Shown: piece by piece, positions 1 through 23,560 of the stretch
How the letters are laid out: each line of letters opens with the position of its first letter
How positions within the stretch are numbered: position 1 is the stretch's first letter
DNA from: Diacronema lutheri
Lineage: Eukaryota > Haptophyta > Pavlovophyceae > Pavlovales > Pavlovaceae
Direction of reading: 5' to 3'
Assembly (NCBI GenBank): GCA_019448385.1
Contig: JAGTXO010000011.1
Location: 62,001 to 126,000, forward strand
Length of the DNA: 64,000 nt
The notes under the pieces: model-generated
The model's input: the letters and a program-made list of their open reading frames with translations, nothing else
What the model was told of the DNA's origin: nothing
Database searches by the model: none
Translations under genes and position numbers: made by a program

Positions 1-2356
1 GCACGGCGCCGTGCAGGCGCGACGCCGGGTGCGAGAGCTCAAGCCGCGCGCCCTTGGCCTTGAGCAGCGCGGCGACGGCCGCCTGCTTGCGGTCGACGGC
101 GACCTCGAGCGGCGTCGAGCTCCACCGATCGCGCTGCTCCATGTCCGCGCCGAGCTCGATCAGCAGCGCCGCCGCCTGCACATGCCCGACGGCTGCGGCG
201 ACGTGGAGCGCGCTGCGACCGTCGTACGTGCCCACGTTCGGGTCGAGCCCGCGCTCGATGAGTGTGCGGATGGTGTCAAGGTCGCCAGCGGGCACGGCGG
301 CGGCAATCTGCGCGACGCGCTCCTCGTTGCGCTCGGTGATCACCAGCCGGATCGACTCGCGCAGCCGCTCAAAGTCCTCCTGCTCGTCGCGGTCGCGGCT
401 GCCATCGGCGAGCGCTGCAGCCGCGGTGGCATGGTCCTGCCCGCTCTTGTCGAGCCCGTACTTGCGCAGGATCGTGCGCACGACCGTGTCGACCTGCTCG
501 GGGTACGAGAGCGCGATCTCCTCAAACGATGCAGTCGTCACGTACACGAGCGTCACCTCGCTGCGCGCGCTCGCCGCGAGCGTGTACGGCTGCGCGATGC
601 TGAGGAAGAAGGCCACTTCGCCGACGATCTGCCCGGGGCCGAGGTCGGCGCGCACGTCCGGGAAGCTCTGCTTGTCGCGGCCGGTCACGCAGAGGATGCC
701 GTCAACGCACCAGCTGAGCTCGAGCGCGCCGTCGCCGCGGCGAAAGAGCGCCTGCCGCGGCGGCAAGAAGCGTTCGCGCAGCTGGAGCGCGAGCGCGTTA
801 AGAAACTGCGGCACGCAGCCGAAGAAGGCCCACGTCGCGCCTATCTCGCGTCGGTACTGCTCGGTCGCCACCTCGGTCTGCAGCGTGCGCGGCATTTGCG
901 CGAAGATGCGGTCGGTCGACGACGACTGCTTTGAGTGCTGGAAGCGGTAGTGCTCGCTCACCTTGGCCGCAAGCGCGGGCGGCAGCTTGCGCTCGGTTGC
1001 AAAGCCGTCGCACGCCTTGAGCAGCGCCTTGAAGTTGACCGTATTCTCGTCGGTGCGCACGAGGTAGTGGAAGAGCGTGCCGAGCACGTATGCGTAGAAG
1101 ATGGTGTGCAGCAATGTCACGACCGTCGCGAGGATGATCTCGATCTCGCGCGTGAGCGTCAGGTCGGAGTAGCCAAGCCCACACAGCCCGGCGTACGACA
1201 TGAAGAGCGCGAACAGGTCTGCGCGCGCGGGGGCGGCGCGCGAGCGCGGCGGCGGAGCAAGCCGTGCAAGGACGTCGGGCAGTGGATGCGGCGAGAGGGG
1301 CGCGTCAGACAAGCAAGCTGCGCGCATGGCGCGCTTTGCCCGCGCGCGGAGCAGGGCGTAGGGTGAGGGTCCGAACCAGTGGAGCGCGCGCGGAGAGACG
1401 CACCGCGCGCCGCGCGCGCCGCGCGCACATCGCTGCGCGAGCGTAATCTCGTTTGCGTCGAGCAATGGGTTGCCTGTAACGAGCTCAAACTGCGCGGGCC
1501 AGGAGGGCAGCTGCACCTCATCTGAGTCCCAGATGTGCCAGCCGTCCGCCACGAGCAGCCACGCGCACGCCACCCAATGCGGCACGAAGAAGAGGATGAG
1601 CGAAAACTTGGACACGGCGAGCAGCCGCACGTTGGACGTGAGATCATTGTTCACCGCCTTGAGAAAGGCGAGCAGGTCGACGATGCGCAGGCAGCGCACG
1701 AGCTGCGCCGCGATGAAGACATCCACGCGGTGCGTCTGCGCAAACGCCGCCCAGCCGACGTAGTGCGCGACGATGGCGGCGACCTCGCGTGCGAATCGAA
1801 AACGCCGCTCGGCGTCCTTCCGGCCGTCGCCATTGCCGTCCTCGTCGTGCGGCGCGAGCCTGCCCGCGAGGCCAGCGGTCGCAGCGTCGGCGCTGTGAGA
1901 TGGTCGCGACGCGTCGAGACAAAACGCGACCGCGCCCCACGCGTCGACGAGCACGTCGACCGCAAGCGCGCCGGCCGAGGCGACAAAGATCTCGGGGAAT
2001 GCGACGCGCAGCGGGATGACGATAAGCTCGTACGTGAGCGCGGGCGTGCGCAGGAGCGTGGCATGGCGGCGGAGGCGCGCGCCAAGCGTAGCGGGCGTGG
2101 TTGTCGCCACCTCCTCGCCTTGCGCGCCGCGCGCCTCGTGTGCCTCGCGCACGTAGACGGTCGGCCACGTGACACGCTGCGCGGCCGCGCGATGCCGCTT
2201 GCCATCGCGCAGGATGCCTGTGATCGTCGCGGCGCGCTTGGCTCGGCGCGTGCCGAGGGCGCGCACGGTCTCATACGCGCCGAGGAGCGCGCGTCGCGCG
2301 CGCGTCGCCGCGCCGCTTGATCCTGTCGCGACGACGTGGATGTCGTTTTGCGACAT
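1..2356 (-). CDS. Tandem two-module CNG-like channel, copy A (5' part only)
   Basis: Start codon at 2356; exon 1 is 2356-1429, intron 1 is 1428-1219 (GTGCGC...GCGCAG), and exon 2 runs from 1218 off the left edge. The visible part encodes the N-terminus, S1-S5, the pore (filter GLGYSD), S6, the C-linker, the cyclic-nucleotide-binding fold and the first ankyrin repeats of a voltage/CNG-type channel. It is a duplicate of copy B about 12,135 bp to the right: exon lengths are equal, and exon 2 shows no difference over its visible 1218 bp. Exon 1 carries scattered substitutions. In this copy intron 1 is 210 bp with no in-frame stop, so an unspliced reading frame also stays open. Whether the 3' half is present cannot be seen. 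It could also be an allele placed in tandem by the assembler. Confidence 0.8.
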   Translation of the reverse strand, partial: MSQNDIHVVATGSSGAATRARRALLGAYETVRALGTRRAKRAATITGILRDGKRHRAAAQRVTWPTVYVREAHEARGAQGEEVATTTPATLGARLRRHATLLRTPALTYELIVIPLRVAFPEIFVASAGALAVDVLVDAWGAVAFCLDASRPSHSADAATAGLAGRLAPHDEDGNGDGRKDAERRFRFAREVAAIVAHYVGWAAFAQTHRVDVFIAAQLVRCLRIVDLLAFLKAVNNDLTSNVRLLAVSKFSLILFFVPHWVACAWLLVADGWHIWDSDEVQLPSWPAQFELVTGNPLLDANEITLAQRCARGARGARCVSPRALHWFGPSPYALLRARAKRAMRAACLSDAPLSPHPLPDVLARLAPPPRSRAAPARADLFALFMSYAGLCGLGYSDLTLTREIEIILATVVTLLHTIFYAYVLGTLFHYLVRTDENTVNFKALLKACDGFATERKLPPALAAKVSEHYRFQHSKQSSSTDRIFAQMPRTLQTEVATEQYRREIGATWAFFGCVPQFLNALALQLRERFLPPRQALFRRGDGALELSWCVDGILCVTGRDKQSFPDVRADLGPGQIVGEVAFFLSIAQPYTLAASARSEVTLVYVTTASFEEIALSYPEQVDTVVRTILRKYGLDKSGQDHATAAAALADGSRDRDEQEDFERLRESIRLVITERNEERVAQIAAAVPAGDLDTIRTLIERGLDPNVGTYDGRSALHVAAAVGHVQAAALLIELGADMEQRDRWSSTPLEVAVDRKQAAVAALLKAKGARLELSHPASRLHGAV

Positions 2357-4056: not shown

Positions 4057-7000
4057 TCAATACATCACGCGCGATCGCGTGGTTGTCACGGCCTGGTCCG
4101 CAGTTGAGGCGCCAGCGTCGCTCGTAGCCAGGGCGGCCTGCGGCCGGCGAAAGGAGATCTCGGCGAGGCGGCTGATCGGGTTGCGCCGGATCTCGCGCTG
4201 CGCATCGTGGTGCGCGAGCAACGACGCGATCTGGCGCCGTGGCGCGCAGGGTCGAGGGAACGGCCGGGCGATCGAAGGCGAGCGCAGGTGTGAGCGATCG
4301 CCTCGGCACTGCGCTGCCTGCGGCGCCTGCAGAGCCATGCGCGAGGCGCGCGCGCGCGCGCGTACCCCTTTGCGAAGCTCGAGCATCGCCTCGCGCGCCA
4401 TGTCGTCCAAGCCGTCGAGCCAGCGCTCGACCATCGGCTCAATGTCGAGCGCCACGTGCTCGTGCTGCTGCCGCTGCCGCTCCGCAAAGTCGCGGATCTG
4501 CTCCCACAGCTCGGGCCGCTCGTCGGCGAGCACGACGCCATGCGCCTCCTCCGCCCGTGCCGCGTCGTCGATGGCCTCGCGCATCGAGCGCACGTCGGCG
4601 ATCTGCTCGTGAAGCCATTCGCACAGGATGCGCGCGTCGCGAAGCAACTGCTCCGTCTCTGCCATCTGCGCGGCCACCTCGGCGAGCCGCTTCTCCTCCT
4701 GCCCTGCGTTGCGGAACGGCTGCGCGGCCGTGCGGTTGGTGCGCGAGCCGAGCCCGCCGCGCCGGGAGCGGAGGAGCGTGCTGAGCACCTTGGTCTCGTC
4801 GTCCTTTTCCGTGCGCAGCGCGTCGTCGAGTGGCGTCGCGCCGTACACGTCCTCCGCGCTCAAGTTGACGCCCTCCTGCTCGAGCAGGAACTGCATAGCC
4901 GAGACGCGCTTGCACGACGCGGCGAGGTGCAGCGGCGTGCGCATGTAATCGTCCGCCACGTTCACCGAGCAGCGCGCGCGAACGAGGCGCGCGAGCTGCA
5001 CCATGTCGCCATCGAACACGGCATGGTTGAGGCTCATCGCCATGTCGAGCGAGCACAGCTCGCCGCCATGCTCGAGCAGCAGCTGCAGTACCGCGTCGTG
5101 CCGCGCGCGCACGCTCTCGTCGAGCGGGCTCACGCCGTGCGCGTCCTTGGCGTTGACCGACGCGCCGCCCTCAAGCAGCGTGCGCACGCTCTCTACGTGG
5201 CCCGACGCGGCGGCGACGTGCAGCGCCGTGCGCTCCTCGAACGGCGTCGCCGCATTCAAGTCGCAGCCGTGCTCTGCGAGCGTGCGCAGCCGCGCGGCGC
5301 CGTCCGCCTCTGCGGCGGCAGCGCACAGCTCGGCCGACATGTCCGCCGGCCCGCGCATCCCTCCCACTTTGGCGAGCAGCGCGGCGGCGGTCGCCTGGCC
5401 GGCGCGCAGCGCGGCAACGAGCGGCGTCGCGCCGTGCGCATCGACCACATTCACGTCCGCGCGACTTGCGACGAGGAGCTCGATCACGCTGACGCTGCCC
5501 GAGCACGCGGCAAGGTGAAGCGCGCTGCGGCCGTTCGCATCGACCGCGTGCACGTCGCTCGCCGGCCCGTTGAGGAGCGCGCGCACCTTGCCCACTTCGC
5601 CCTTGACGCAGGCAAAGCAAAGGCGCATGTGCAGCAGCTCGGCGCGACGCCGCTTGGCGGATGAGAGGATCTGCGCGGCGGGCGGGCGGGTGTGCGTTCG
5701 CATCACGAGCAGAGAAGACGAAGGACGGAGGAAGAAGGGCTGAGCACAGGGGGCGGCGGGGACGCATGCACGCTGCACGCTGTAGACCGTGCAGTAGCGA
5801 ACGCACCACTTGCAGCCGAGAAGCACTATCGGCGGCGAGGGCGCTTGTTGCGGACGCTGCCGCAGACCCCAACGCACTGCCGCCGGCCAGCTCGGAGTCG
5901 GCGTCCATCCGCGAGCGACCTGACATCACCGAGCCGCCTGCCGAGTTCGAGCGCGAAGACTTGAGGTTTGAGCGAGAGGTCACTGCGTGCAAACGAAAAC
6001 GCGCCCCGATGACGCATAGCAACGCGCAGCGCATTGCGCACAGGAGGTGAGAGTGCGCGCGCATCGCATCGCATGCATGCTCGCAATATGCACGGAGATG
6101 CTGGTGCCGCACAAACGGCGCGTTTGCGAGGACGATCGATCAGCGCGCACCTTCGTGCTGATGGATGGCGTTCTCCATCACGATGTCGTGCATGCCAGGA
6201 AAGGTCTTAAGCAAGTCAACGTACCCCGCCGACAGGAGCACAAACATGCGCGTCTCCACGTCCGGTGCTGCGCGCGCGTTGTGCACGTGCCGAACCTGGA
6301 GCGCGCCGGTTCGCGGTGGGACTCGTGAGCGCGCGAGACTGGGCGCGTGCGAATGCGCGCGCATTGGGCAGTGCCTCGCACGCGCTGAGACGCAGCGTGC
6401 CCCAATTGCAGCTGCGCCCCCACCTGAAAGACGAACGGCACGTCGCCGAGCGTTTCGCCAAAGCTGCGCGTTTCGGTGATCGATGCCTCCTCGCCTGGCT
6501 GGTGATCGTCGTACAGCTCGATCACGCCGGATGCGACGAAGATGAGCTCCTTGCACGCCTCAGCCGTGCGGAAGATGACCGACTCGGCCTCGGGCGTGCG
6601 CTCTTGCAGCAGCGACGACAGCCGGTCAACGAAGCCGGCCGAGCAGCCGCGCAAGATGCGCGCCGCCTCGATGACGGCGCGGTTGGTGTGCTTGCTCACC
6701 TCGATCTGCACCTCCATCGGCAGCCCGCGGTAGATCACGTCGGCGGGCACCGCCGAGAGCGACGTCGACTTGAAGCGCTGCTGGAAGAAGCGCGTGAGCC
6801 GCTGCTTGAGCTCCTTCGGCACACGGATATGCCGCACGTAGCCCTGCACGAGCTCGAGCTGCGCGCGCTTGGCGATGATCTCGTCGTCCTGCTTCATCAC
6901 GAGCGACGACAGATTGCCAACGATGACTGCGTACACCTGCAGCGCGCACGAGACAGCGGAAGGCAGCGAGCGACACGCGTCAGCGCACACCGTGCGCGTC

Positions 7001-10000
7001 ACGAGACGAACGGACGGCTCTCGCACAGTACGCTCGTCACCACGAGCACGCAGCCGCGCGTGCGACCATGTGCGGTTGTGAGCGTAGCACGTGCAGCGCT
7101 GGCACAGGCGCGCAGACGAGCGCACGCACCGTCATCGACACGAGCATGATGAAGATCTGGAGCGCAAACTCAGCGATGTTGGACGGCGGCATCCCGCCGA
7201 CCGTCGTCACCAGGCTGACCGTCTGGAAGTAGCTCACGAGGTCTGGGCGCGCGCAAGGATAAGCGAGCGTGCGCAGTGCGCCGCGCGTGAGCAATGCCGT
7301 GCGTAACCGGTGATGCACGCACGGCTGCGCGGTCGGCGCGCGCAGACGGTCGCGCACAGTGGTCGAGGACAATTGTCTCTGCCTGCCGAGAGTCGAGCCG
7401 TCTCGCATTGACCTCCATCCGCCTGATCTCGTACAGCTCGGCCCACGTCTCGTACGTCAAATCGCGCACGAACTCTGCGTATCCGAACAGATCCATCACC
7501 GTGGCGAGCAGGTGCAGCGTGAGCAAGAAGATGAACATGGTCGAAAGCATGCCAGAGAAAAGGTCCTCGTCGTCGATCGACGCAAGCCACTCGCGGTAGC
7601 GGCGGTAGCAGTATCGCGCGTTGAGAACGCGCGGCAGCCGGCTGGCGTAGAACTGCATCGGCGTCACGCCCACGGTCATGAGCACCAGGTTGAGCGGGAA
7701 GGCGGCGAGCATGTCCATCACGCAGTTGCCCGCGAGGTAGGCTTTGCGGCACGCGTGAGGATCGGTGACCTCGACCGACTTTTCGTTGACAAAAGAGACG
7801 AAGAAGGAGCCGGCAATGCGAACGACGTATAAGGCGTCAAAGGCGATCCGAGCGGCCTGCAGCCAGAGCATGGTCTCCGTTTGGCGGATGAAGACAAGCT
7901 CGAGCGGCAACAGGAGCACGTCCATGCTCACCATGAGCAAAAAGCATGCGTGCGCCGCACGATAGCCGCGCGACTTCACAGACGCGATGTACCACGGCTT
8001 CGTCGACGCCCCGAGCAGCCCGGCATCACGCGCGGCATCGTCTTGGCGCGCGAGCGCTGATGCATCGCCAACACCCTTCCATGCGTTATTCGCGATGCCC
8101 GCTGTGACTGCATCGCGGAGCGCGCGCTCGACTGACAGCCACGTGACCGGCTCGCGCGACAAGAGCGAACGACGTGCCATGCGCCGCTCCTGGTCGTCCT
8201 CGCCGTCGATTGCGAGCTCGAGCTCGAGACGCGAGGCAAACACATCAGCGAGCATGTGCGCCGTCGCGTCCGGAGGCACAACGACGGCCTGCGCGATGAT
8301 CGCGAGCAGCGCTCCCGCACGCACGGCCTCGCCGCGCAAAAGCCGGCCAGAGTCGAGGCGTACCGCCAGCCGGTCAGCAATGCCCGTCAGCGCCTCAGCT
8401 GACCAGAGGCTCGCGTCGAGCGCCTCGAGCAACGAGGCCACGCGCTCCGTGGTAAGCAGCCGCGCGCCGTCTGGGGCCGAAGCGCCAGTCGCCTCATCAG
8501 CAGCGGGCGACGGCTCGACGACGCCATCCTTGGAGAGCCCGTTGTGCGTCCCGGGCGGGTTCTTGAGGTGCAGGTTGAGAGCAGGCATCGCTGGCGAGCC
8601 TTGCGCAGCTCCTGCCGCGCTGTGCGCCGCTGCACTCGCCTCCTCCTCCTCCGCGTCTGCCGTCGTCGAGAGGATCCACGCGGCGACCGCCGGGAAGAAG
8701 TGCGCCTCGCTTAGCAGCGCGCGCTTGGCGCGCCTTGCCAGCCGCGCAGCATCTTCGCCGCCTCCGAGCGCGACGCGAGCGTGCTGCGCAGGCATCGCGG
8801 GCGAAGCGACAGCTGGCGGCGCATGTGGCTGCTGGCTGCGTCCCACAGTCGGACTCGCACTTGTCGAGAGGCTGCAGGAGCGATGCGCGTGCGGATTGCC
8901 CATTGGAGAGCTGGCCTCGACGGACGGCTCGATCGAGGGCGTGCGTGACGTTACCGCCAGATCACGCGAGACGTCGGCCGAGCGTGGACGAGGCGCGGAG
9001 GCGGGTTTCTCGCTCGTGTTCAGCGAACCAGCTGAGTGTCGGCCGCGGCGCGAGCGACGGTTGGCGAGGTGGCCCGAGCTCGCGTCGAGTGCGCGTGTGG
9101 AGATCGCCGCCAAGCTACCAACGAGGCGTTGCGACATGCTGACCGCCAAAGTGCCCTCGCACGTGCCAGTCGTCGTCTCGAACAACGGCGGCGCATCTTC
9201 GGCGTCCGCGGTGGCCGTGGCTGCAACTCCGCCAACGGCTTGGCAAGCCTCGCGTTCGTCGCTGCTTTCGGCATTCGCGCTTGGCCGCGACCGCTCGGAC
9301 GTCGACCGCGCGCCTGAAGCATGCTTGTCCTTGCGAGCCCGCGTATGCCAGGTGCGCCGCTCTGCCTGGCGCTCGGCGCCCTCGCCCTCGCGATCCGCGA
9401 GCGGCGCGCCAAGTGCGATCGCCGCGTGGTGCAAGTGCTCGTACAGCGCGGCGATCTGCTGCGAGCCGCTCTCGCCCAGCTGCAACCGCAGCCGGCGCAC
9501 GTCACTCAGCCGCACCTGCGCAGGCGTGTCCTCGCGCGCAGGCCGCTTTTCATTGCCCGCAAATGCGCCGGAGCTAGCCGCGTCAAAGTCGAAGACGGCG
9601 AGCAGCTGGTGGAACACGACCGCCGTGCGCTGCACAGCGGTGCGCACGCGCTTCTCCGCTGCATTGGCTGCAGCCGCCGCCTCGGCTTCGCGCTGCTGGG
9701 CAGACGCGACGATCGTCGGGATCGGCGATGCGCGCGGCTGGTGGGAGAAGCGAGCAAGACGAGTCGGAACGGAAGGCAGCACGAGGGTGTCCGAAGCGCG
9801 TCTGTGTGAAGTCAACGACAAGCGGCGGCGCATCAAGTGCGACGGCGACGACGCCGGCGGTAATGCTTCAGGCTCGCTGCCCATCGCAGGAGCGTCGAGA
9901 ATGCGGACCGATGCGCGCGGCCAGCTGCGCAGCGACTGCGAAGCGCTGATCGCGACAGTGCTCGACTGCACGGACCGTGGGCGAATACACTCTGTCGAGG

Positions 10001-13000
10001 GTGCTGCTGCAAGCCCTCGAAGCGACGTGTCCCGAGAGAAGGCCGAAAGCTCGGTGTCGCCGCTGCGCACGAGCGAGCGCACAAAGGTGCGGCTGGTAAA
10101 GAAGATGGAGAACCCGAGCTGCGAGACGAACACGGGCGCAGTGGTTGGCAGCATAAAGTCGTTGGATGGTGCGGCGTTCATTTGTGATGCGCGCGCGTCC
10201 GCCTCGCTTGGCGGCGTGCGTCGAGGCATCTCTGCGCTAGCCGCGCCGACAACCTTGTTGTTGCGCTTGAGCAGGCTCCTGCGGCGTGCCTCCATCGCAC
10301 GCGTGCGCGAGTCGAGCGGGTTGCTCGCGCGCCGGGCGAGTAGGCCGAGCTCAAAGAGCGCCTCCGCGTCAACTGTGCGGGCGGTACGTTGCGGTAGTGC
10401 TGCTGCGCCGTCCGCTGCTGCGCTTGATGCGCTTGCGTGCGACTTGTGCGCATGCACGCTGCCAGACACTTCCCGCGAGTGCACGCCACTGCCCAAAGCG
10501 CGGCGCTGCCAGCGGGAAGCGCGCTCGAGATCAGTTTGGCCTGCGCCTTCGACGTCCTGGTCATCGTTGCCAAGCTGCGGCTGCATATCGATGCGCATGC
10601 CCATACCGTGCGGGCCAGTCGGCGTCGTGCCGAGCGTGTGCGCGAGCTGCGCGTAGATCTCGTCAAGCGTGCGCTCGGCGTCGTCTGGCGCAAAGCCGAG
10701 GTCGCCCACGAGGAGAGCAAGCATGGCGGCGTGCTCGTCGTCGCGCCGGCGCTGCTCGGCGTCGAGCGGGCGCTGGTCGCCTGAGGTTGCGCTCTTGTCG
10801 TCGTTGAGATTCGCGTCCGCCGTGGACTGTGCGGCCGCCGCGGCGAGCCGCTCGCCAAAGAGGCGCTTGAGCAGCAGCAGGCCCTCCTCCGCGCTCGGCA
10901 GCTGCAGCGTGACGCGCGTGAAGCGCCGTGCCGCAAGCGCCGCGTGCTTCTCGCTCTCCTCGTCGGAAGCGGTCGCCTCGCCAGATGGCGTCACGGTGCC
11001 GCGCGCATCCGAGTCGGAGCCGTCTGATGAGCACTGCGAGCTGATGTCCGAGTCCGTCTCGTCGTCATCCGCGCCGTACGAGTCGATCCACCGGTCCGCC
11101 ACACCGCGCTGCAGCGTGCGTGCGAGCGCCGCGCGCTCGCGCACGACGCGGTCTAGCATCGTCGCGGACTCCTTGAGCGCAATCTCCAACTCACGATGGA
11201 TGCGCATCTTGTGCGCGAGCGCGTCCTTGCGCGCCTGCATGCGCCTGCGGACCTCGGCCATAACGGCGTACATATCGAGCGAGCGCGCATTGGCAAGGCG
11301 CAAGCTCAGCTCGGCCGACTGCGCGAGTTGTGCCGGCAGATTGGCGCCGTTGTGTGTGAGAAGCGCGGCAAGCTCGGGCGTCGTCTCGAGCGCATCGACG
11401 AGCGGCGTGCGGCCCCACCGGTCGGCCATCTCGACGTCCATCAGCGCAGCGACGAGCAAGAAGACGGTCGAGATCGAGCCGGACACGGCGGCGTAGTGCA
11501 GGCCCGTGCGCCCGTCGTAGTGCGGCATCGCCACGCACCTGCATATGGCGCGAGCATCGCCGTGCGGACAAGGGGTGTCAGGGCAGAAGAGCACGGCGCG
11601 ACAATCGCGGCCAGCGCGGCCAGGGCGTGAGACGAGCGCGGCACAAGGGGCTCGCGCAGCATCGACGGCGGCACATGAGGAGCTGACAGCAAAGGGGCTC
11701 ATGACACGGCGCACGAGGTGGAAGCGCGCGCGCAGAAGGCCAAGGGGTGCGCTGTGGCCGCGCTGCCGCATGGCGCGACGCACGCGTCGACGATCGTGAC
11801 GCCCATGTCGAGCATGAACTGCACGCTGTCAACGTCGGCGCGCTTGGCCGCGGCGCGGATCAGCGGCGCGAGCCGCCGCTTGTCAGGCCGCGCCGACGAG
11901 CGCATGAGCAGCTGGATGACGAGCGTGCTATGCGCATCGATCGCGTCGTCGAGCGGCGTGCGGCCCCACCGGTCCTGCGCATTCACCTCGGCGAGCGAGG
12001 AGATGAGCAGCTTCGCGACGAGGTCGTTGCCAGCGGCGGCGGAGATATGCAGCGCCGACCGCCGGTCGTGGTCGACGGCGCTCACCGGGATCCCGAGCGA
12101 GAGGAGCAGCGCGATCTCGTCCATGTCACCGCGCCGCACGGCGCCGTGCAGGCGCGACGCCGGGTGCGAGAGCTCAAGCCGCGCGCCCTTGGCCTTGAGC
12201 AGCGCGGCGACGGCCGCCTGCTTGCGGTCGACGGCGACCTCGAGCGGCGTCGAGCTCCACCGATCGCGCTGCTCCATGTCCGCGCCGAGCTCGATCAGCA
12301 GCGCCGCCGCCTGCACATGCCCGACGGCTGCGGCGACGTGGAGCGCGCTGCGACCGTCGTACGTGCCCACGTTCGGGTCGAGCCCGCGCTCGATGAGTGT
12401 GCGGATGGTGTCAAGGTCGCCAGCGGGCACGGCGGCGGCAATCTGCGCGACGCGCTCCTCGTTGCGCTCGGTGATCACCAGCCGGATCGACTCGCGCAGC
12501 CGCTCAAAGTCCTCCTGCTCGTCGCGGTCGCGGCTGCCATCGGCGAGCGCTGCAGCCGCGGTGGCATGGTCCTGCCCGCTCTTGTCGAGCCCGTACTTGC
12601 GCAGGATCGTGCGCACGACCGTGTCGACCTGCTCGGGGTACGAGAGCGCGATCTCCTCAAACGATGCAGTCGTCACGTACACGAGCGTCACCTCGCTGCG
12701 CGCGCTCGCCGCGAGCGTGTACGGCTGCGCGATGCTGAGGAAGAAGGCCACTTCGCCGACGATCTGCCCGGGGCCGAGGTCGGCGCGCACGTCCGGGAAG
12801 CTCTGCTTGTCGCGGCCGGTCACGCAGAGGATGCCGTCAACGCACCAGCTGAGCTCGAGCGCGCCGTCGCCGCGGCGAAAGAGCGCCTGCCGCGGCGGCA
12901 AGAAGCGTTCGCGCAGCTGGAGCGCGAGCGCGTTAAGAAACTGCGGCACGCAGCCGAAGAAGGCCCACGTCGCGCCTATCTCGCGTCGGTACTGCTCGGT

Positions 13001-14492
13001 CGCCACCTCGGTCTGCAGCGTGCGCGGCATTTGCGCGAAGATGCGGTCGGTCGACGACGACTGCTTTGAGTGCTGGAAGCGGTAGTGCTCGCTCACCTTG
13101 GCCGCAAGCGCGGGCGGCAGCTTGCGCTCGGTTGCAAAGCCGTCGCACGCCTTGAGCAGCGCCTTGAAGTTGACCGTATTCTCGTCGGTGCGCACGAGGT
13201 AGTGGAAGAGCGTGCCGAGCACGTATGCGTAGAAGATGGTGTGCAGCAATGTCACGACCGTCGCGAGGATGATCTCGATCTCGCGCGTGAGCGTCAGGTC
13301 GGAGTAGCCAAGCCCACACAGCCCGGCGTACGACATGAAGAGCGCGAACAGGTCTGCGCGCGCGGGGGCGGCGCGCGAGCGCGGCGGCGGAGCAAGCCGT
13401 GCAAGGACGTCGGGCAGTGGATGCGGCGACAGGGGCGCGTCAGACAAGCAAGCTGCGCGCATGACGCGCTTTGCACGCGCGCGGAAAAGGCAGGGAGGGA
13501 GAGGGTCCGACCCAGTGGAGCGCGCGCGGAGAGACGCACCGCGCGCCGCGCGCGCCGCGCGCACATCGCTGCGCAAGCGTGATCTCGTTTGCGTCGAGCA
13601 ATGGGTTGCCCGTAACGAGCTCAAACTGCGCGGGCCACGAGGGAAGCTGCACCTCTTTTGAGTCCCAGATGTGCCAGCCGTCCGCCACGAGCAGCCACGC
13701 GCACGCCACCCAATGCGGCACGAAGAAGAGGATGAGCGAAAACTTGGACACGGCGAGCAGCCGCACGTTGGACGTGAGATCATTGTTCACCGCCTTGAGG
13801 AAGGCGAGCAGGTCGACGATGCGCAGGCAGCGCACGAGCTGCGCCGCGATGAAGACATCCACGCGGTGCGTCTGCGCAAACGCCGCCCAGCCGACGTAGT
13901 GCGCGACGATGGCGGCGACCTCGCGTGCGAATCGAAAACGCCGCTCGGCGTCCTTCCGGCCGTCGCCATTGCCGTGCTCGTCGTGCGGCGCGAGCCTGCC
14001 CGCGGGGCCAGCGGTCGCAGCGTCGGCGCTGCGAGATGGTCGCGACGCGTCGAGACAAAACGCGACCGCGTCCCACGCGTCGACGAGCACGTCGACCGCA
14101 AGCGCGCCGGCCGAGGCGACAAAGATCTCGGGGAATGCGACGCGCAGCGGGATGACGACGAGCTCGTACGTGAGCGCGGGCGTGCGCAGGAGCGTGGCAT
14201 GGCGGCGGAGGCGCGCGCCAAGCGTAGCGGGCGTGGTTGCCTCCACCTCCTCGCCTTGCGCGCCGCGCGCCTCGTGTGCCTCGCGCACGTAGACGGTCGG
14301 CCACGTGACACGCTGCGCGGCCGCGCGATGCCGCTTGCCATCGCGCAGGATGCCCGCGACCGTCGCGGCGCGCTTGGCTCGGCGCGCGCCGAGCGCGCGC
14401 ACGGTGTCGTACGCGTTTAGGAGCGCGCGCCGCGCGCGCGTCGCCGCGCCGCTTGAGCCTGTCGCGACGACGTGTATTTCGTTTTGCGACAT
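4057..14492 (-). CDS. Giant tandem two-module CNG-like cation channel with ankyrin repeats, copy B
   Basis: Nine exons: 14492-13565, 13353-11784, 11538-7358, 7242-7130, 6936-6424, 6295-6151, 5982-5810, 5670-4366, 4230-4057. Phases agree at all eight introns, giving about 3033 aa. Module 1: S1-S5 about residues 105-275, pore 310-330 with filter GLGYSD, S6 335-360, C-linker, cyclic-nucleotide-binding fold 440-560, ankyrin repeats 610 to about 870. A long Ser/Ala-rich disordered linker follows. Module 2: S1-S5 about 1960-2220, pore with TTVGGMPPS (G2242-P2246), S6 with YAVIVGNLSSLV as in animal CNG channels, C-linker, nucleotide-binding fold, then ankyrin repeats and a helical tail. Both modules carry an intron at the same place and phase, inside the Tyr codon before the pore, which supports internal duplication. 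Membrane protein, probably a cation channel. The 4.2-kb exon 3 might hide further introns. Confidence 0.85.
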
Positions 14493-15068
14493 CACCGTGG
14501 ATAGCTCGCGCGAGTATGAGAAGTTTGTCTACTATCCAGTCGTCATTTCGACTTTTCCCTCTCGCACATCACTTTCTATATACTAACGACGCTTTCCGAC
14601 GGGTCAACAGATGGGGTCAGGAAGTGCGCAGCGAGGCGCCAGGCGGAGCAGGCCCAAAGGCCCACACGCGCCTAGCCACCGCGCGCCGCCGCCCGCGCGC
14701 CGCCGCACCGGTGGCCGCCGTCAATCACACCACCGGCCGACGCGCACGCGCACGCCGAGGCCCGAAGATCGTCGGCGACGACCGCCACCCCCGAGCCGCC
14801 GCCTGCCACGTCGCCAAGCCGCCCGCCGCCGCTGCAGAGCGCGACGCCCGCCGCCAGCGAGCCGCCGCCCTCCCCGCCGCGTCGCAGCCCCCTGCCGCCG
14901 CCGCGAAGCGCACCGCCACCCGCCGCCAGCGTGGCAAGCGCCGCGATGCTGGCCGCGTGGCCGCGCACGCGCGCCCCGCCACCCCCACTTTCTATATACT
15001 AACGACGCTTACAGGCGCGAGCGAAAGGGCGCACGCAACAGATATATAGCTAGCCATGGGTCCTTTTA

Positions 15069-15188
15069 ATACTAACGACGCTTACAGGCGGGTCAGCAGG
15101 AGGGGCGCGCACGGGGCCGAGGCTGGACATACTAACGACGCTTACAGGCGGGTCAGCAGGAGGGGCGCGCACGGGGCCGAGGCTGGAC
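15069..15188. repeat. 60-bp tandem repeat, two copies
   Basis: 15069-15128 and 15129-15188 are identical except near the last base. Each contains the transposon-end motif ATACTAACGACGCTTACAGG followed by a GGGTCAGCAGGAGGGGCGCG stretch. Confidence 0.9.
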
Positions 15189-15515: not shown

Positions 15516-18500
15516 GGGGCGGACGGGGGTGACTTTACGAAGTTTTCGACAGCCCCCACAACTCTAACCTATGTTCGAATACGCCCCCCATATGACGTGG
15601 GGTAGATATACTAACGACGTGCGCGCTTTGCATGGGGCTCGGAAGCGCCCACGCTCTCGCCCTCAAAGTTCGTCTCGCCATCCCCGTCGCCATCGCCTGG
15701 GATTTGGCTCTCGCCCTCGCCAATCCCGCGTGCGAGCGCAGCTTTGATGTCGACTTTGAGCTTGAGGAGGGGCAGCCCTTGTTTGACCTTCAGAGCCTTC
15801 GCCAGGACGCGCGCGTCGTCTTTGTTGAGCGCATTGACGAAGCTCTCCCCCTGGGACTTGGCCGCAGCCACCAGAGGATCCACGATGTGCCCCTCAGGGA
15901 ATGAAGGAGGCGGCGCGTGCTGGCAAGCGCGAGCGCCGTGGAAGGCGGCGAAGGGGAGCGAGTGAGCGCTCGGCAAAATGCCAACGCAATGTTGCGGACC
16001 TGCGCAGAGCGCCACGCGGGCCCACAGGCAGCCACATCAGCACGCTCGCGCGGAGCGCGGTGTACGCGCCGCGAAGAAGAGGTAGCGTCGAGGGTTCGGC
16101 AGCGGTGCAGGCGCACCCGATGAAGCACGTGCGTTTGCCGCGTCAAAAGGAGCTGCCGAGGACCACGGCTGGGCCACGAAGGCGGGCACGGCAGGCTGCG
16201 CGCTGGCGAAGTGTGCGCCTAACAGGGTAATTTGAATTCGCGCGGGGAATATGGGGAGGGAGCGGAGGGTCGGAGAGTGAGACGCTGCAACGCTGTGCAT
16301 GCGGCGGCAGCAGCGCAGCCGCGCGAAAGGAGGCGCAGCCGACAGCGCACCGGCAGGTGAGGCTCGCACGGGTTGCGCGAGCGCGCGTGCGGCGTTGAGC
16401 TGGACGAGCCCCGCCTCGTACGCAGTGGCTGCTTGGCGCAATGCCTCTTCTTCGTCTGAGCGTGCATGTGAACGCGCAGGGCGACAAATAAGAAACGGTC
16501 GCGTTGTGGCATGCGGCGGCAGAGGGACGGGAGACGGGAGAGGGAGCACGCTCGTAGGTCGCGCGAGCGCGCAGGCGCGCGCCGTACTTTCGGCCGACAG
16601 GGCGGCTGCCTCACCAGACGATGCCCGCCGCATGCAATCATCCACGGTCGCCGCCGCGTGTCGTTGCCCAGCTCTGCGCGAGATGTCCTCGAAGGCCTTG
16701 AGTGTCGGCGTCCGGAGCACGCGCTCATCGGCCGACGTTTGCACGCCGGGCGTGAAGCTGTTTTGCACCAGGCTCTTGTACACAGCTTGTGCCGCCGAGA
16801 AGACATTGTCGCCCGACGTCTTTCCGCCCTGTGCCACGGCCATCGCGAGGCACCTCCCTGCGAGCGCACGCTCGGATGGCGAGAGGTGCTGCAAGGCCAT
16901 GCCCCTGGTCTGAAAGCAGTGCGTCGGAGTTGCCTTCTTCGACAAACTCTGCTTGAGGTCGGTCCGCTGTGCGGTGGATCGCGGACGAGGCGGCGACGGC
17001 GGCGGCGGCTGGGAGGGCGCGGCGTGGGCTGCTGCGGAGGCGTCGCCCGACACGAGCTGGCGCGGCTGCTCCTGCTGGCAGTGCTGGTGCTGCAACGGCC
17101 GCTGCGAAGGTGCGGGCTGCGGTGAGCGCTGCATCGCAGGTGAAGCAGGCAGAGTCCTCGCCGACTGTTGCATCCGCGGCTGCTGCGGCTGCTGCGTTTG
17201 TCGCCGCAGCTGTGCGGACTGCAGCGGCGGTGGCGGCGATGGCGGTGGCGGACATGGTGGCGATGGTTGCCTTGGCAGTTGCAGCCTCGATGGCGAAAGA
17301 GTCGGCTGCGAGGTGAATGCTGCGAGCGCGTCGCCAGCTGCGGACGAGCCGTCTGCCCATGCGAGGCGGGGCAGCTGCTGCTGCTGCGGCCGCGGCGGCG
17401 GCGGCAGTGGCAGCGTCGGCGGCGGCGATGGCCAGTGCTCGAGCTGCGTTTGCGGCGAGCTCGCGCGCCCTGTAAGCGAGAGCGCTAAGGCTGCCCTCTG
17501 CTCGGGCGACAGCGACCGCGGCACGCGCGTCTGAACCAAACTCGGCGACAAAGGCGGCGGCTGCCGCGGGGGCGACGGAACGGATCGTGAGGCGCGTTCT
17601 GCTGCCAGCGCGCTCACGAGCTGCGCGTACTCCTCTTGCGCCTTCTCAATGTCAGGCTCGTAGGCCCAGCCCATCGGCTCGTAGAGAGCGTGCTTCGAGC
17701 CGATGCCGCCGGTCGGATTGTCGAAGAAGGACTTGCGCAGCATGGCAAATGTCTCGCCGAGGCTGCGCTCCGAGAGCAGAGCAGGTGTAAGCCAGAATGG
17801 CTCACCGTCGGCGTTCGTAGATCGGCCGAATGCGTCGCGCATCTCCGCAGCGCGCGCATGCCCCACGAGCCGGAAAAAGATGCGGCACTGCAGCACGTTC
17901 CTGTCCACCGTCGAGACACCTTCCACGAGCGGATTGAGGAGCGAGTTCAGATCCTCGACAAGCGAATCCCCTCGCATGGCCACAAATTTGCGCAGCGTGC
18001 TGTTATGGTACACGCGCCCGGCCTGCAGGTACATCTCGTCGAGAGGAAGCGGGTCGTTCAAGCAGCCGTTAGCCACGTGGACTCCGACCAAGTCGATCAC
18101 CTCGCCGGTGCCCGCAACACGCTCGCCAGTCCTGCTCGCTAGGCGCATCGGCGACTGTGTCGGGCTCGACCGCGCAAACGCTTCCCACTTCTCCTTGACC
18201 TCAGTCAGTCGCGCGAGCGCAATCTCGGGTGCAGGTGTCGTCGATCGAATCGCGCCATCTGCCTTGTACCGAGCGAGGTCTTCGCGCACGCGCGCGAGCG
18301 CCGCTTGTGCAGTGAGCGACTTGTTTTGCGCCTGCAGATAGGACGCAACCGCGCGGATGTCCTCCTCGACCGGCTGAAGGAGTGCACTGGACAAATTGCG
18401 CTTGAGCTCGGTCGCAAAGGCCTGGCTGGAGGCCTTGCACGTGTCGCCGATACGCTTGAGCGCGTGGAAGTGGTCGAGATACGGGCGGCGGGAGATGGTC

Positions 18501-21500
18501 GGGAAGAGGTTGACGAGCACATGCTTGGAGAGCATCTCAGGCCTGCACTTGCCGCAGCAGGTGTCTGTGTACCACGCGACGACGCCTGACAAAGTCCCCA
18601 TGCGCTCAAACCGCGCGCGCAGCCGGAGCAGCGCGGGGAGGAGATGCTTGTCAAAGCTCTCCGACGCGGTGACTCCCCACCAGAGCGTCTCCCCGCGTGC
18701 TCCCTGGATGATGACCAGCACCTTGCCATCACCAGTAGACCTGATTGCAAGGGAGCGCGTGCCATCCGAGCGGATGATTCTCCCGGGCGAAGACTGGAGC
18801 AAGCGCTCGAGCAGAAAGGGCTCGAGGATAGCGCCAATGTGGCAAAAGATCGTGCGAATGTTGTCAGCAGAGGGCACGAGCAGCGAGTTGAACACGTTAA
18901 GGAAGGCAAATGGCGGCCAATCAGCGACGCGAGCAGCTGGCTCCGTCTCTTGCTCGCGCTGCGCATCGCCCCAGTACGAGTGGAGAGTCTGCTGCGCACG
19001 CGCGCGACTTGAATGCCCCTGCTCCTCGACGAAGCGAGCGTAGGCATCGTGCATGCGCGATTGGTTCAGAAGGTCCGGAGCGGCAATCTGCTCGGCGAGC
19101 TTGGCCATCGGGATAGTCGAGATGAAGATGTGCTGCGCAAGTGACCACGTCATGGCTCCGACTTTCATGAGCACAAGGTCTGCATACTTGGTGCGCACAG
19201 ACACGGGCAAGTACTCCGGGTCAGCGATGAGCGTGCTTATCGCCGTGGTCTTGCTGCAGCCCTTGCAGAAGATGGTCTCGCTCATGACGCAGATAACGCC
19301 AGCGAGGTCGTAGGCATAGCGAATTGGCGCCCATCCGGCGCGGCAGATGAGGTTGTTGCTCTTGCACTTGGGGCACGGGCAGATGATGCGAGTAGGGTCG
19401 TCGTTGACGCGAAAGCGCGGGTCGGCGGATAGCTCCCGTCGAATAAGGAGGTGTGGCGCGACCACCGCAACCTTTGGACGCATCACAAACGCACCGCGCG
19501 CTGCGAGCATCGATGCAGCGTCCCACTGCCCACTAGGCGGCTTGCAATGCCTCGCCATGAGCGCAGAGCCGGGCGGCTCATAGAAGGGCGCACAAGGTAG
19601 GCGCTCCTCGAGGAGCTGCATCACCTCAGCGCCGCAAAGCGCCACGCCGCCGCGCGTGAGGACAAGCATTCCTCGGGCGGCAGAGTCGCTCAGCTCGATG
19701 CGTGGCATGCTGCCGCCGAGCGAGCGAATGAGGGCGCGGACTACACCGTCGCCCAGTCGCCGCTCGTCCTCATGCGAAAGCAGCGGGCGCGCGGCAGCTG
19801 CAGGCGCAGCAGCGCTGGCAGCAGCGTGCTCAGAGCGCATCGCACCTGCTGCGCCCGAGGGGCTGACACCTACCGCCCCGACGCATGTGCTCCGTGAGCG
19901 AGAGGCACGATGCAAGCCGAGAGTCGGGAGCGGCGGCGCTTCCACACCTCGCAGCGAGCCGCTGCAACTCGCATCTGCAAAGCGACCGCCAAGGCTGCTC
20001 GCGCGCGCAGACTGTGGGGCAGGGCTCGCGACAAGAAGAGGGGCCGAGCTGGGCACAGACTGTGCCGAGTCGGTCGCGCCGAGCAGAGCGTCGAGCGCGG
20101 CGCCCGGCTCGCGGCCGCCGAGCGCGCCGACGCACGCGCCGCCAGCGCGCCCGCCGTCGCGCCCGCTCGCGCCAAGCGCGCCTCCGTACACGCCGCCGCC
20201 GGGCCAGGCGCCGGGCTCGCCATCGCGCTGCTGCGACGCAGCAGATTCTGCGCGCTGCAGCGGCGGCGCGCCAAGCGGCAAGCCTTGCAAGCAAGCCGCC
20301 GCGAGGAGCGACGGACACGTCTGGCACGCCTGCGCCTCCGCATGTTGCCTCTCGGACGCAATTGGGTGCGCGCAGCCGGCGCCGCGGGCGCACGAGCCGC
20401 GGTCACCGTCATCGGCGAGAGGCAGGAGCAGCCGGTGCGACGGTGGCTGCGGATGCTGCGCGTGCGTCGTGTGCACGGTGTGCGACGGCGTCTCGTGCTG
20501 CTGCGTGGCGCTTGGCGGTACGCGTGCCGGAGATGTGAGATCCACGACGACGACATCGCCGACATGCGGGGCCGTCGACAACGAGCACGGCGTGCAAACG
20601 GCAGGAGTGTCTCCACTCGGCGGCGGGACGGCGGCGCGCAGCGTGCTGCCTAAAGGCATGCCTAGCGCAAGCGGCGAGGGCATCGCACGCCGCGGCGGAG
20701 TGACAAGCGCGCTCGTTTGCTGCTGCTGCGCCGCTGCCGCTTGCCGCTGCTGCGCCGCTGCCGCTTGCCGCTCGAGTGCCGCCTGTCTGCTCCGCTCCAA
20801 GCGCTCGCGCTGCTCGGCGGAGAGCGGCGGCGGCTGAAGCGGCGCAGTGATGAAGCTGCGCGATGACTGCGTCTGCGCTTGCGCTTGCGCCTGCGCTTGC
20901 GGCACGGCACGCGCTGGTTGCGGTGACGGAGCGGGGGGCGCCGGCGCCCGCGATGCGCACGCGGCCACTCCGCGAGGTTGGCCGTAGGGTTTAAGGTTGA
21001 ATGGATAGACGAGCTCGTGTTTCGCCGAGCTATCGCCTCGCTTCACACGTGCCCGCCGCTTATCCTCATCATCGAGCGATTTGAATGACACGCGCTTGAC
21101 GACGCTCTCGAGCCAAGCGGCCGGGTCGGGCGCGCCGTCGACGCAGCACGACGCGACATGGAAGTGCATGTGAAGCTTGGTAGCGTGGTTGACGTAGCAG
21201 AGGAGGTATGCGCAACTTGCGTCGGCTGGCATCCAAAGTCCGCAGACGAAGCAGCGTGCCACGTCCTTGCGCGTGTTCGCCGGCTGGATCTGCGCGCGCA
21301 AGGCGGCGAGCAAACAAGAAAGCAGGCGATTGCAAGCAGGCACATGCGGGCACCGATGGCGAGCGCGCGCGAAGCTCAGGCAGATCCCCTCGTGCGGCGC
21401 TCGCGGTCGGCGCGCGCGCACGGCGAAGACGCGGATGCCCCTGCGCTGAAGTGCGGCGCCATCGGCGAGCGTCGGCGCGAGGTGCGCGTTATTCGCGAGG

Positions 21501-21755
21501 TGCTGCGCGTAGTCCATCGGCGAGCGCGCGACCGCCGTATCGCCGCGCTCCCGACCGCACGCGCCCGGGCCGCACGGATGCGGGCCCGCCAGGACGGGCT
21601 GCGTGTGGTTGTGGAGGAAAGCGAACGACCCCACTCGGGGGCTCCAACGGACATGCGTAGAAATCGATTGGAGGATCGGAGGTCATTTGCCGGGCAAATA
21701 AGGAGGTTTGAAGGTCATTTGCCGGACAAATTGAATAGTAAAGTCACCCCCCCCC

Positions 21756-22550: not shown

Positions 22551-22574
22551 ATGGGGGGGGCGGGGAGGGGTTTC

Positions 22575-23560
22575 ACGTCGACGGGATGCGTGACAAGGAG
22601 CTCGATCACGCTGACGCTGCCCGAGCACGCAGCAAGATCCCCCGGAGTGCACTGCGGCCATTTGCATCGACCGCGTGCACGTCGCTCGCCGGCCCGCTGA
22701 GGAGCGCGCGCACCTTGCCCACTTCGCACTTGACGCAGGCAAAGCAGAGGCGCATGTGCAGCAGCTCGGCGCGACGCCGCTTGGCGGATGAGAGGATCTG
22801 CGCGGCGGGCGGGCGGGTGTGCGTTCGCATCACGAGCAGAGAAGACGAAGGACGGAGTACGAAGGGCTGAGCACAGGGGGCGGCGGGGACGCATGCACGC
22901 TGTAGACGCAAGGGGCCGCAAGCAGCGTGCAGCAGCAAACGCACCACTTGCAGCCGAGAAGCACTATCGGCGGCGAGGGCGCTTGTTGCGGACGCTGCCG
23001 CAGACCCCAACGCACTGCCGCCGGCCAGCTCGGAGTCAGCGTCCATCCGCGAGCGACCTGACATCACCGAGCCGCCTGCCGAGTTCGAGCGCAAGGACTT
23101 TGAGTTTGAGCGAGACGTCACTGCGTGCAAACGAAAACGCGCCCCCGATGACGCACAGCAACACGCAGCGCATTGCGCACAGGAGGTGAGAGTGCGCGCG
23201 CATCGCATCGCATGTATGCTCGCAATATGCACGGAGATGCTGGTGCCGCACATCGAGCAGTGCGCAGGTGCCGAACGGCGCGTTTGCGAGGACGATCGAT
23301 CAGCGTGCACTTGCATGCTGATGGATGGCGTTCTCCATCACGATGTCGTGCATGCCAGGGAAGCTCCCGTCGACAGGAGCACAAATATGCGCGTCTCCAC
23401 GTCCGGTGCTGCGCGCGCGTTGTGCACGTGCCGAACCTGGAGCACGCCGGTTCGCGGTGGGACACGTGAGCGCGCGAGGCCGTGGGCGCGTGCGACTGCG
23501 CGCGCATTGGGCAGTGCCTCGCACGCGCTGCGACGCAGCATGTCGCAAGCGTAGACACGG
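22575..23560 (-). pseudogene. Fragment C of the tandem channel gene
   Basis: Collinear with about 5470-6460 of copy B: the first part of the ankyrin exon 8 (22586-22795), intron 7, the Ser-rich linker exon 7 (about 22950-23122), intron 6, and part of nucleotide-binding-fold exon 6 (about 23300-23440). Damage is visible: the exon 8 equivalent is altered after CACGCAGCAAGATC, exon 6 has lost the segment between CCAGG and CGACAGGAGC, and there is a 20-bp insertion in the intron 6 equivalent. Nothing upstream or downstream restores a gene, so this is a decayed third copy. Confidence 0.85.

Follow-up and report, generated by a model that had tools for sequence, protein, structure and literature searches.

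Predicted two-module CNBD channels with ankyrin repeats behind each module form a gene family in the haptophyte Diacronema lutheri

Does a single gene of Diacronema lutheri encode two ion channel modules in one chain, and what kind of channel would such chains form? The question is raised by a locus in the window, i.e., the whole stretch of 64,000 nucleotides that was analyzed (contig JAGTXO010000011.1, positions 62,001 to 126,000). A first-pass annotation had described one polypeptide of about 3033 aa with two complete CNG-type modules, each followed by ankyrin repeats, and had suggested that this could be an undescribed architecture. The last suggestion went too far, as two-repeat CNBD channels have been known since 2020, when they were published for dinoflagellates, oomycetes, and chlorarachniophytes (PMC7576140). 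This was the only directly relevant study found on haptophyte tandem or ankyrin CNBD channels, and haptophytes are not among the hosts named in its available text; the available text of PMC12223298 describes other channels. In this literature, no published report was found of an occurrence in haptophytes, of one ankyrin block per module, or of unlike filters in the two modules.

The gene was modeled with eight exons on the minus strand, and its features are listed below in window positions.

4057..14492, minus: whole two-module gene; 8 exons, GT...AG introns, 3,079-aa ORF plus stop, no internal stop (predicted splice model)
13565..14492, minus: exon 1; start codon and N-terminus, then module 1 from S1 to S5, of which S1-S3 are putative (unrecognizable by profile)
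13354..13564, minus: intron 1, of phase 1, preceding the pore of module 1 (splice model)
11784..13353, minus: exon 2; module 1 from the pore through S6 and C-linker to the CNBD, plus the larger part of ankyrin block 1
13298..13315, minus: module 1 selectivity-filter position, GLGYSD (translation and SKOR/GORK alignment)
12643..12907, minus: module 1 CNBD (PF00027); its phosphate-binding cassette has QPYT, like that of SKOR
11322..12454, minus: ankyrin block 1, split by intron 2 (Pfam Ank models; coordinates from the splice model)
11539..11783, minus: intron 2; length 245 bases, with a stop codon in frame near 11699
7358..11538, minus: exon 3; last part of ankyrin block 1, the long linker, and module 2 from S1 to S5
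8187..11156, minus: linker between the modules, about 990 aa; looks coding, under relaxed purifying selection (dN/dS, codon-position GC, colinear similarity to C38)
7243..7357, minus: intron 3, of phase 1, preceding the pore of module 2 (splice model)
7130..7242, minus: exon 4 (splice model)
7184..7207, minus: selectivity-filter position of module 2, TTVGGMPP, which lacks GYG (translation and alignment)
6424..6936, minus: exon 5 (splice model)
6151..6295, minus: exon 6 (splice model)
6254..6591, minus: module 2 CNBD in exons 5 and 6, split by intron 5 (PF00027 match to spliced module 2, E 1.8e-6)
5807..5982, minus: exon 7 (splice model)
4057..5670, minus: exon 8 (splice model)
4657..5547, minus: ankyrin block 2 (Pfam Ank models on window 4057-5925; coordinates from the splice model)
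1..2356, minus: second tandem copy, 5' part; 98.3% identical over 2,357 bases

All splice junctions of this gene are predictions from genomic sequence, and all seven predicted introns are of the GT...AG type. For D. lutheri, three RNA-seq libraries have been published (PMC8379373). The in-frame stop that the first-pass annotation had placed in intron 2 is present, and a diverged fourth copy (L028) likewise carries a stop ahead of the same acceptor. As far as the genomic sequence goes, one two-module polypeptide is supported, slightly longer than first annotated and, as had been proposed, with ankyrin repeats behind each module.

Three copies lie in tandem, and the window gene is copy 1; copy 2 starts at window position 2356 and copy 3 lies beyond the window. 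Copies 1 and 2 are identical throughout exons 2-8, and the third has its own ATG and an 8-bp deletion in exon 8 that alters its 3' end. A polyprotein of at least four repeats encoded by the array was ruled out, as copies 1 and 2 each possess their own ATG and stop. CNGK of sperm resembles the algal gene in carrying several CNBD channel repeats in a single chain. However, it has four of them (PMC7576140, as available), compared to two here between the start at 14492 and the stop at 4057, and the next unit of the algal array has its own start and stop.

The two modules are not equally well preserved. Module 2, when spliced, matches Ion_trans with an E value of 8.9e-10 over profile positions 5-235 of 241, in addition to cNMP_binding (Pfam), has a strongly conserved C-linker, and finds its nearest PDB relatives in KCNH, GORK, and HCN. 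Module 1 matches cNMP_binding (E 2e-8), and its family profile is recognized from S4 on, with plant SKOR/GORK as nearest PDB relatives (SKOR, E 1.1e-45, profile against PDB). With a cutoff of E<=1, Pfam gave no Ion_trans match to module 1 after splicing, and an S1-S4 profile from seven loci gave zero matches to PDB chains at E<=10; between the profiles of modules 1 and 2, the S1-S2 similarity was only borderline (P 0.048). Consequently, of the two complete modules originally annotated, module 2 stands, while module 1 is seen from S4 to the CNBD only. As S1-S3 are unrecognizable, module 1 may lack a working voltage sensor. From its pore to the ankyrin repeats, module 1 evolves with a dN/dS of 0.10, determined against a diverged copy at C37:403k because the tandem copies are too similar for this purpose. 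Single-sequence structure prediction of exon 2 alone was unusable (mean pLDDT 39.5, pTM 0.23). The CNG-type label could not be upheld, since the nearest relatives lie elsewhere and neither module carries an arginine at the usual phosphate-binding position; CNG chains (CNGA/CNGB) do occur in the PDB match lists, but other channels match better.

Plant SKOR, GORK, and AKT1 show the same succession of channel, C-linker, CNBD homology domain, and ankyrin repeats, and the sequence QPYTV is common to SKOR and module 1. Unlike the predicted algal chain, SKOR and GORK have one module per chain, four chains per channel, and a TVGYG filter. Plant SKOR, GORK, and AKT channels also end in a C-terminal KHA domain. 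No KHA model was found in the window pieces including the C-terminus (Pfam, E<=0.1) or in three paralogue frames (E<=0.01), among which that of L018 holds the C-terminal ankyrin block.

The window gene belongs to a family. In the genome, 18 loci with module 1 and 18 with module 2 were identified, and 17 same-strand pairs have module 1 upstream of module 2. The unpaired module 1 locus is a copy without module 2 in the sequence examined, and the unpaired module 2 is cut by a contig end. The module 2 of C5 (L025) was placed by a weak match (25% identity, 3.4e-12). A match to either module was absent from L027 and, among the matches listed, from L029-L032, and tblastn revealed no viral relatives (65 and 20 pattern matches, 0 confirmed). 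A single frame from module 1 to module 2 is open in 10 of the 14 two-module loci outside the array, and the 3,012-aa frame of L018 includes both modules and both ankyrin blocks. The long frames of L013, L018, and L023 appear to cross in-frame introns; an open frame alone is therefore weaker evidence in this GC-rich genome. Apparently single-module CNBD channels, of which short stretches were read, also exist in the genome.

In the phylogenetic tree, all module 1 sequences fall on one side of a branch and all module 2 sequences likewise (support 100/99 and 100/100), and the branching of one module tree is mirrored in the other, with 9 of 12 clades in common. The tree excludes the module 2 of L025 (330 of 476 positions recovered), the single-module row C82a, locus L039, the fourth copy L028, which is without module 2, and the second and third tandem copies. 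A common ancestor that already had two modules is the most likely source of the two-module loci, of which there are at least 17. By description, the channels of dinoflagellates, oomycetes, and chlorarachniophytes are alike in having two 6TM-C-linker-CNBD repeats per chain, with repeats 1 and 2 in separate, mirrored clades and a low inter-repeat identity (PMC7576140, as available). In D. lutheri, the cross-module BLAST identity of the channel/CNBD part is 20-29%, i.e., within the limit of <=30% applied to two-repeat channels, and profile homology between the modules extends across S5-CNBD (E 6.9e-33). The word “ankyrin” is absent from the main text of the 2020 study, as far as it is available (PMC7576140).

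How the ancestral pair arose is a separate matter. The first-pass annotation had argued for an internal duplication from the intron shared by both modules ahead of the pore. This intron was rejected as evidence, as it is rare: among the 14 other two-module loci, it occurs in one module 1 (C38) and in three module 2 sequences (C38, C47b, C83), confined to one subclade per module tree. In the module 2 of C71, an insert at this site is perhaps an in-frame intron, so that the pre-pore intron may be older. A fusion that joined two distinct CNBD channel genes, compatible with a two-module channel, is an origin that we place a little short of even chances. Modules 1 and 2 have different nearest PDB families, and their grouping as sisters received a support of 74/42 only, with module 1 plus plant channels (p-AU 0.374) and module 2 plus plant channels (p-AU 0.373) equally acceptable. 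The tree thus neither shows nor rejects modules 1 and 2 as sisters. On the other hand, it does group them weakly, and an ankyrin block at the same place in both modules is most simply explained by duplication.

The modules also differ in their filters. Module 1 retains a G-[Y/F] filter of the pattern xxG[YF][GASP] in 15 of 15 sequences, whereas G-[Y/F] is missing from module 2 in all 16; the TVGYG of plant channels is found in neither. The loss of G-Y/F-G is not peculiar to module 2, since three (C30, C102, C9) of the five channels with apparently a single module that were compared do not have it either. The module 2 filter of the window gene, TTVGGMPP, may resemble CNG filters. Deviations from TVGY/FG are described as rare, with metazoan CNG channels as the one exceptional clade (PMC7576140, as available), whereas every module 2 read in D. 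lutheri is without this motif. The position of the canonical phosphate-binding arginine, where the alignment is uncertain, is occupied by Q in all 15 module 1 sequences and by H (14 of 16), Y (1 of 16), or Q (1 of 16) in module 2; there, in the same uncertain alignment, R or K stands one place earlier in 16 of 16. In GORK, F467, located at the place of the QPYT tyrosine, is said to block nucleotide access (PMC12742848, as available). Nucleotide binding by the module 1 CNBD homology domain is unlikely.

We consider it likely that one chain carries two CNBD-channel modules in series and that two such chains form one pseudotetrameric cation channel of C2 symmetry. A single transcript would then encode a SKOR/GORK-like pore with C-linker, CNBD homology domain, and ankyrin block, a probably flexible linker of roughly 990 aa, and a full 6TM channel with the same three elements. 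The dimer would be the obvious assembly, in line with the pairing first proposed, and modules 1 and 2 would alternate around the pore. With a G-Y/F-type filter from module 1 and a motif-less filter from module 2, this pore would be expected to differ from a standard K+ pore. The missing motif could also mean that module 2 is a non-conducting regulatory half at the side of the same polypeptide, with the pore formed by four module 1 copies or with partner subunits, for which the apparently single-module channels are candidates. This is unlikely, as module 2 is the better preserved 6TM unit and its C-linker is strongly conserved. In tetrameric relatives, the C-linker serves assembly.

A long linker with little conservation (dN/dS 0.46 for residues 961-1620, against a diverged copy) would also suit two adjacent single-module genes, with one transcript ending and the next starting within exon 3, but this is very improbable given that exon 3 stays open in one frame, free of stops, between the end of ankyrin block 1 and the pore of module 2, that the frame is kept in the diverged copy and shared by the modules at most other two-module loci, and that module order and module trees agree across the family. 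The linker looks coding: its codon-position GC is 0.72/0.58/0.78 compared to flat values of 0.70/0.71/0.70 in introns, and it shows colinear similarity to C38.

For the channel of two double chains, a two-fold assembly is most likely by analogy to GORK, which changes between four-fold and two-fold symmetry via its ankyrin domain, ankyrin dimers lowering C4 to C2; a similar reduction is stated for SKOR and AKT1 (PMC12742848, as available). Gating would respond to voltage, mainly via module 2, and to contacts of the ankyrin blocks as in GORK; regulation is probably exerted through these contacts, not by cyclic nucleotides. Evenly balanced, in our estimate, is the broader proposal that haptophyte double channels, with at least 17 loci in a 43-Mb genome, build two-fold symmetry into the chain as an obligate ring of modules 1-2-1-2 with ankyrin-set gating and unusual selectivity. 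Each chain would bring two unlike filters, one GYG-like and the other non-GYG, as well as two ankyrin blocks, making the channel a permanently symmetry-broken relative of GORK/SKOR. If true, tandem CNBD channels would be extended from SAR to haptophytes, and a covalently fixed two-fold symmetry, in which the halves differ in their filters, would provide a natural test of the role of symmetry. That a compact alga has a family of this size points to an important and as yet unexplored role in its electrical or osmotic physiology.

The window gene lies on the minus strand between 14492 and 4057 and is predicted to encode a channel protein with two modules (m1 and m2), each with a cyclic nucleotide-binding domain (CNBD) and an ankyrin block.

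Predicted exons of the two-module channel gene (splice model)
14492-13565, minus strand, exon 1
13353-11784, minus strand, exon 2
11538-7358, minus strand, exon 3
7242-7130, minus strand, exon 4
6936-6424, minus strand, exon 5
6295-6151, minus strand, exon 6
5982-5807, minus strand, exon 7
5670-4057, minus strand, exon 8

In this model, all seven introns are GT...AG introns, six of them with a GTGCG donor, and the predicted exons join without interruption into an ORF of 3,079 aa plus stop codon. The single reading frame proposed by the first-pass annotation is thereby upheld; the length given there was about 3,033 aa. Ankyrin repeats behind each module were likewise confirmed, as Pfam ankyrin models match downstream of both. 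For spliced module 2, Pfam identified Ion_trans (E 8.9e-10, profile positions 5-235 of 241) and cNMP_binding (E 1.8e-6); in spliced module 1, searched from about residue 101 on, cNMP_binding was detected (E 2e-8) and Ion_trans was not. Hydropathy exceeded the chosen cut-off, which stretches inside soluble domains also pass, at S2, S4, S5, pore and S6 of module 1 and at S1, S2, S3, S5 and S6 of module 2. The match of the m1 profile to PDB starts at S4, and an m1 S1-S4 profile from seven loci found no PDB match at E<=10; aligned to m2 S1-S2, it gave a weak alignment (P 0.048). Of the complete S1-S6 sets claimed for both modules, therefore, only that of module 2 is supported.

Starting in ankyrin block 1, exon 3 stays open in a single frame as far as the module 2 pore. 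The GC content of the linker between the modules shows a coding pattern over the three codon positions (0.716/0.579/0.781), while that of the introns is flat (0.704/0.714/0.698), and when the linker was resampled 300 times with a first-order Markov model, every resampling contained at least five stops. Between the window gene and a diverged copy on the same contig (C37:403k), 788 positions align in one frame without a stop, with dN/dS values of 0.39 for exon 1, 0.10 for the pore-to-ankyrin stretch of module 1 and 0.46 for the part of the linker that was compared (residues 961-1620). The linker is also matched in four colinear stretches by C38, the nearest other two-module gene.

Three tandem copies, the window gene being the first, share 99.0-99.6% identity over approximately 10.5 kb. 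Exons 2-8 of copies 1 and 2 are identical and their exons 1 differ at 30 sites; between copies 3 and 1 there are likewise 30 differing sites in exon 1, plus three in exon 3 and 48 in exons 4-8, eight of the latter representing one deletion. Such a patchwork points to gene conversion or to a duplication in the very recent past. The DNA similarity ends at the start codon (window 2356 and 14492), and the upstream region of copy 1 therefore differs from those of copies 2 and 3. Upstream of the start codon, positions 14580-15188 contain ATACTAACGACGCTT units, which may serve as a promoter element or constitute a repeat; the 11-mer ACTAACGACGC occurs four times in the window (expected 0.02), always within this region and twice in identical 60-bp repeats. 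A 968-bp fragment at 22571-23539 shares 89.9% identity, on the same strand, with 5470-6396 (the exons 6-8 region including introns) and is apparently a decayed piece of the window gene. A 1,881-aa open frame (16037-21682, minus strand) with a Cys-rich CPKCKSNN...FCKGC stretch gives the impression of a possible mobile-element or nucleic-acid-binding protein.

Queried with a single protein per module, the D. lutheri genome yielded at least 18 m1 and at least 18 m2 loci once the matches were grouped, both counts being lower bounds. In seventeen cases an m1 is paired with an m2 in the same order on one strand; these include the three tandem copies and C5, whose m2 was counted on a weak match (25% identity). 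For the unpaired m2 (C26), the contig ends at 61,996, which is 1.5 kb away. The unpaired m1 (C37:403k) belongs to the fourth, diverged copy on C37 (G000:C37:394501-410000; L034, L028), which is 96.8% identical in m1 from pore to ankyrin block 1 and showed no recognisable m2 in the surrounding sequence examined, with a single match near the C-terminus about 5 kb past the last linker match. On C26 (L033, G000:C26:57001-61996), the m2 frame shifts between S5 and pore relative to the paralogue L017, whose sequence it otherwise follows, reflecting an assembly error or a pseudogene. In a survey of open frames of at least 250 aa at 20 loci (L013-L032), one frame joins the m1 channel/CNBD part to the m2 channel part, 849-1,293 aa apart, in 10 of the 14 two-module loci L013-L026; at L018 on C71, a 3,012-aa frame spans the two modules together with their ankyrin blocks. 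Some of these frames apparently cross in-frame introns (inserts in L013, L018 and L023), the genome being GC-rich. The channel repertoire of the 43-Mb genome is large (122 Ion_trans matches, counted exon by exon, and 115 cNMP_binding matches), and several other frames carry two neighbouring CNBDs, for example C82:653573/653939 and C86:949963/950329.

A tree of 312 columns and 37 rows (15 m1, 15 m2, four apparently single-module D. lutheri channels, SKOR, GORK and KCNH5) placed all m1 rows on one side of a branch (support 100/99) and likewise all m2 rows (100/100). For the 14 loci with both modules, rooted with KCNH5, the two module trees share 9 of 12 clades, one of which comprises all loci except L024. 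The simplest reading of these phylogenies is a single two-module ancestor whose modules were passed on together. Profile comparison aligns the two modules over S5-CNBD (E 6.9e-33). A sister relationship of the modules received support of 74/42, and neither m1 with the plant channels nor m2 with them was rejected (p-AU 0.374 and 0.373). Best PDB matches of the module profiles were the plant channels SKOR (1.1e-45) and GORK (3.3e-43), then AKT1 (5e-32), for m1, and KCNH5 (5e-35), KCNH1 (2e-34) and GORK (5e-33), then KCNH2 and HCN1, for m2.

The intron preceding each pore had been taken as a sign of internal duplication, which its shared position does not show. This phase 1 intron, within a Tyr codon, interrupts both modules of the window gene and of C38, and m2 of C47b and C83; these four loci form one subclade within each module clade. 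Judged by BLAST continuity at the 14 other two-module loci, the site is uninterrupted in 13 of the m1 modules and in 10 of the m2 modules, with m2 breaks in C38, C47b and C83 (C5 not assessable). In C47b, m1 carries a different intron, after GYS, about 18 residues further on. Late gain or copying between modules looks simpler than one ancestral intron with many losses, though such losses are conceivable. Against late gain, C71 m2 bears a 33-residue insert immediately following this Tyr; its borders are unclear, and it may be an in-frame intron.

At the filter position, G-[Y/F] is kept in all 15 m1 sequences (GYA, GYG, GFG, GYP, GYS; the following residue was not recovered in L026) and absent from all 16 m2 sequences read (12 full alignment rows, L017, L033 and, from exons, L020 and L026). 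The window m2 has TTVGGMPP, and others have, for example, SALGVAQLP, SGLGINHLP or TTMGTDQLP. Since G-Y/F-G is also absent in three of five apparently single-module channels of this genome (C30, C102, C9), motif loss is not special to m2; special to the two-module genes is the fixed pairing of an m2 without the motif with an m1 keeping G-[Y/F]. According to Pozdnyakov et al., deviations from TVGY/FG are rare, metazoan CNG channels being the single exceptional clade (PMC7576140).

CNBDs that bind nucleotides carry a phosphate-binding Arg. At its place, m1 has Q-P-[Y/H]-[S/T] in 15 of 15 sequences, resembling QPYT of SKOR and QPFT of GORK; in m2, 14 of 16 rows show H there, and the residue one place earlier is R or K in every row. 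By alignment count, F467 of GORK corresponds to the F in QPFT; m1 sequences carry Y at this position, apart from one with H. The GORK study states that this bulky residue likely blocks nucleotide access (PMC12742848). From these motifs, gating by cyclic nucleotides therefore appears unlikely in the case of m1, and for m2 it is doubtful.

The architecture had been considered potentially undescribed. Two-repeat tandem CNBD channels are already known (PMC7576140); in the open-access literature, none was found reported from haptophytes, with an ankyrin block behind each module or with GYG missing throughout one half. In GORK, ankyrin contacts lower the symmetry of the tetramer from four-fold to two-fold and keep the channel in an autoinhibited state; the same source describes a similar loss of symmetry in SKOR and AKT1 (PMC12742848). 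With two unlike modules per chain, each followed by an ankyrin block, a GORK-like two-fold arrangement would be built in: two chains would place m1-m2-m1-m2 round the pore, with two unlike pairs of filters. The product may be a cation channel that is poorly K+-selective or non-selective, would sense voltage mainly via m2 and might be regulated by ankyrin contacts or partners.
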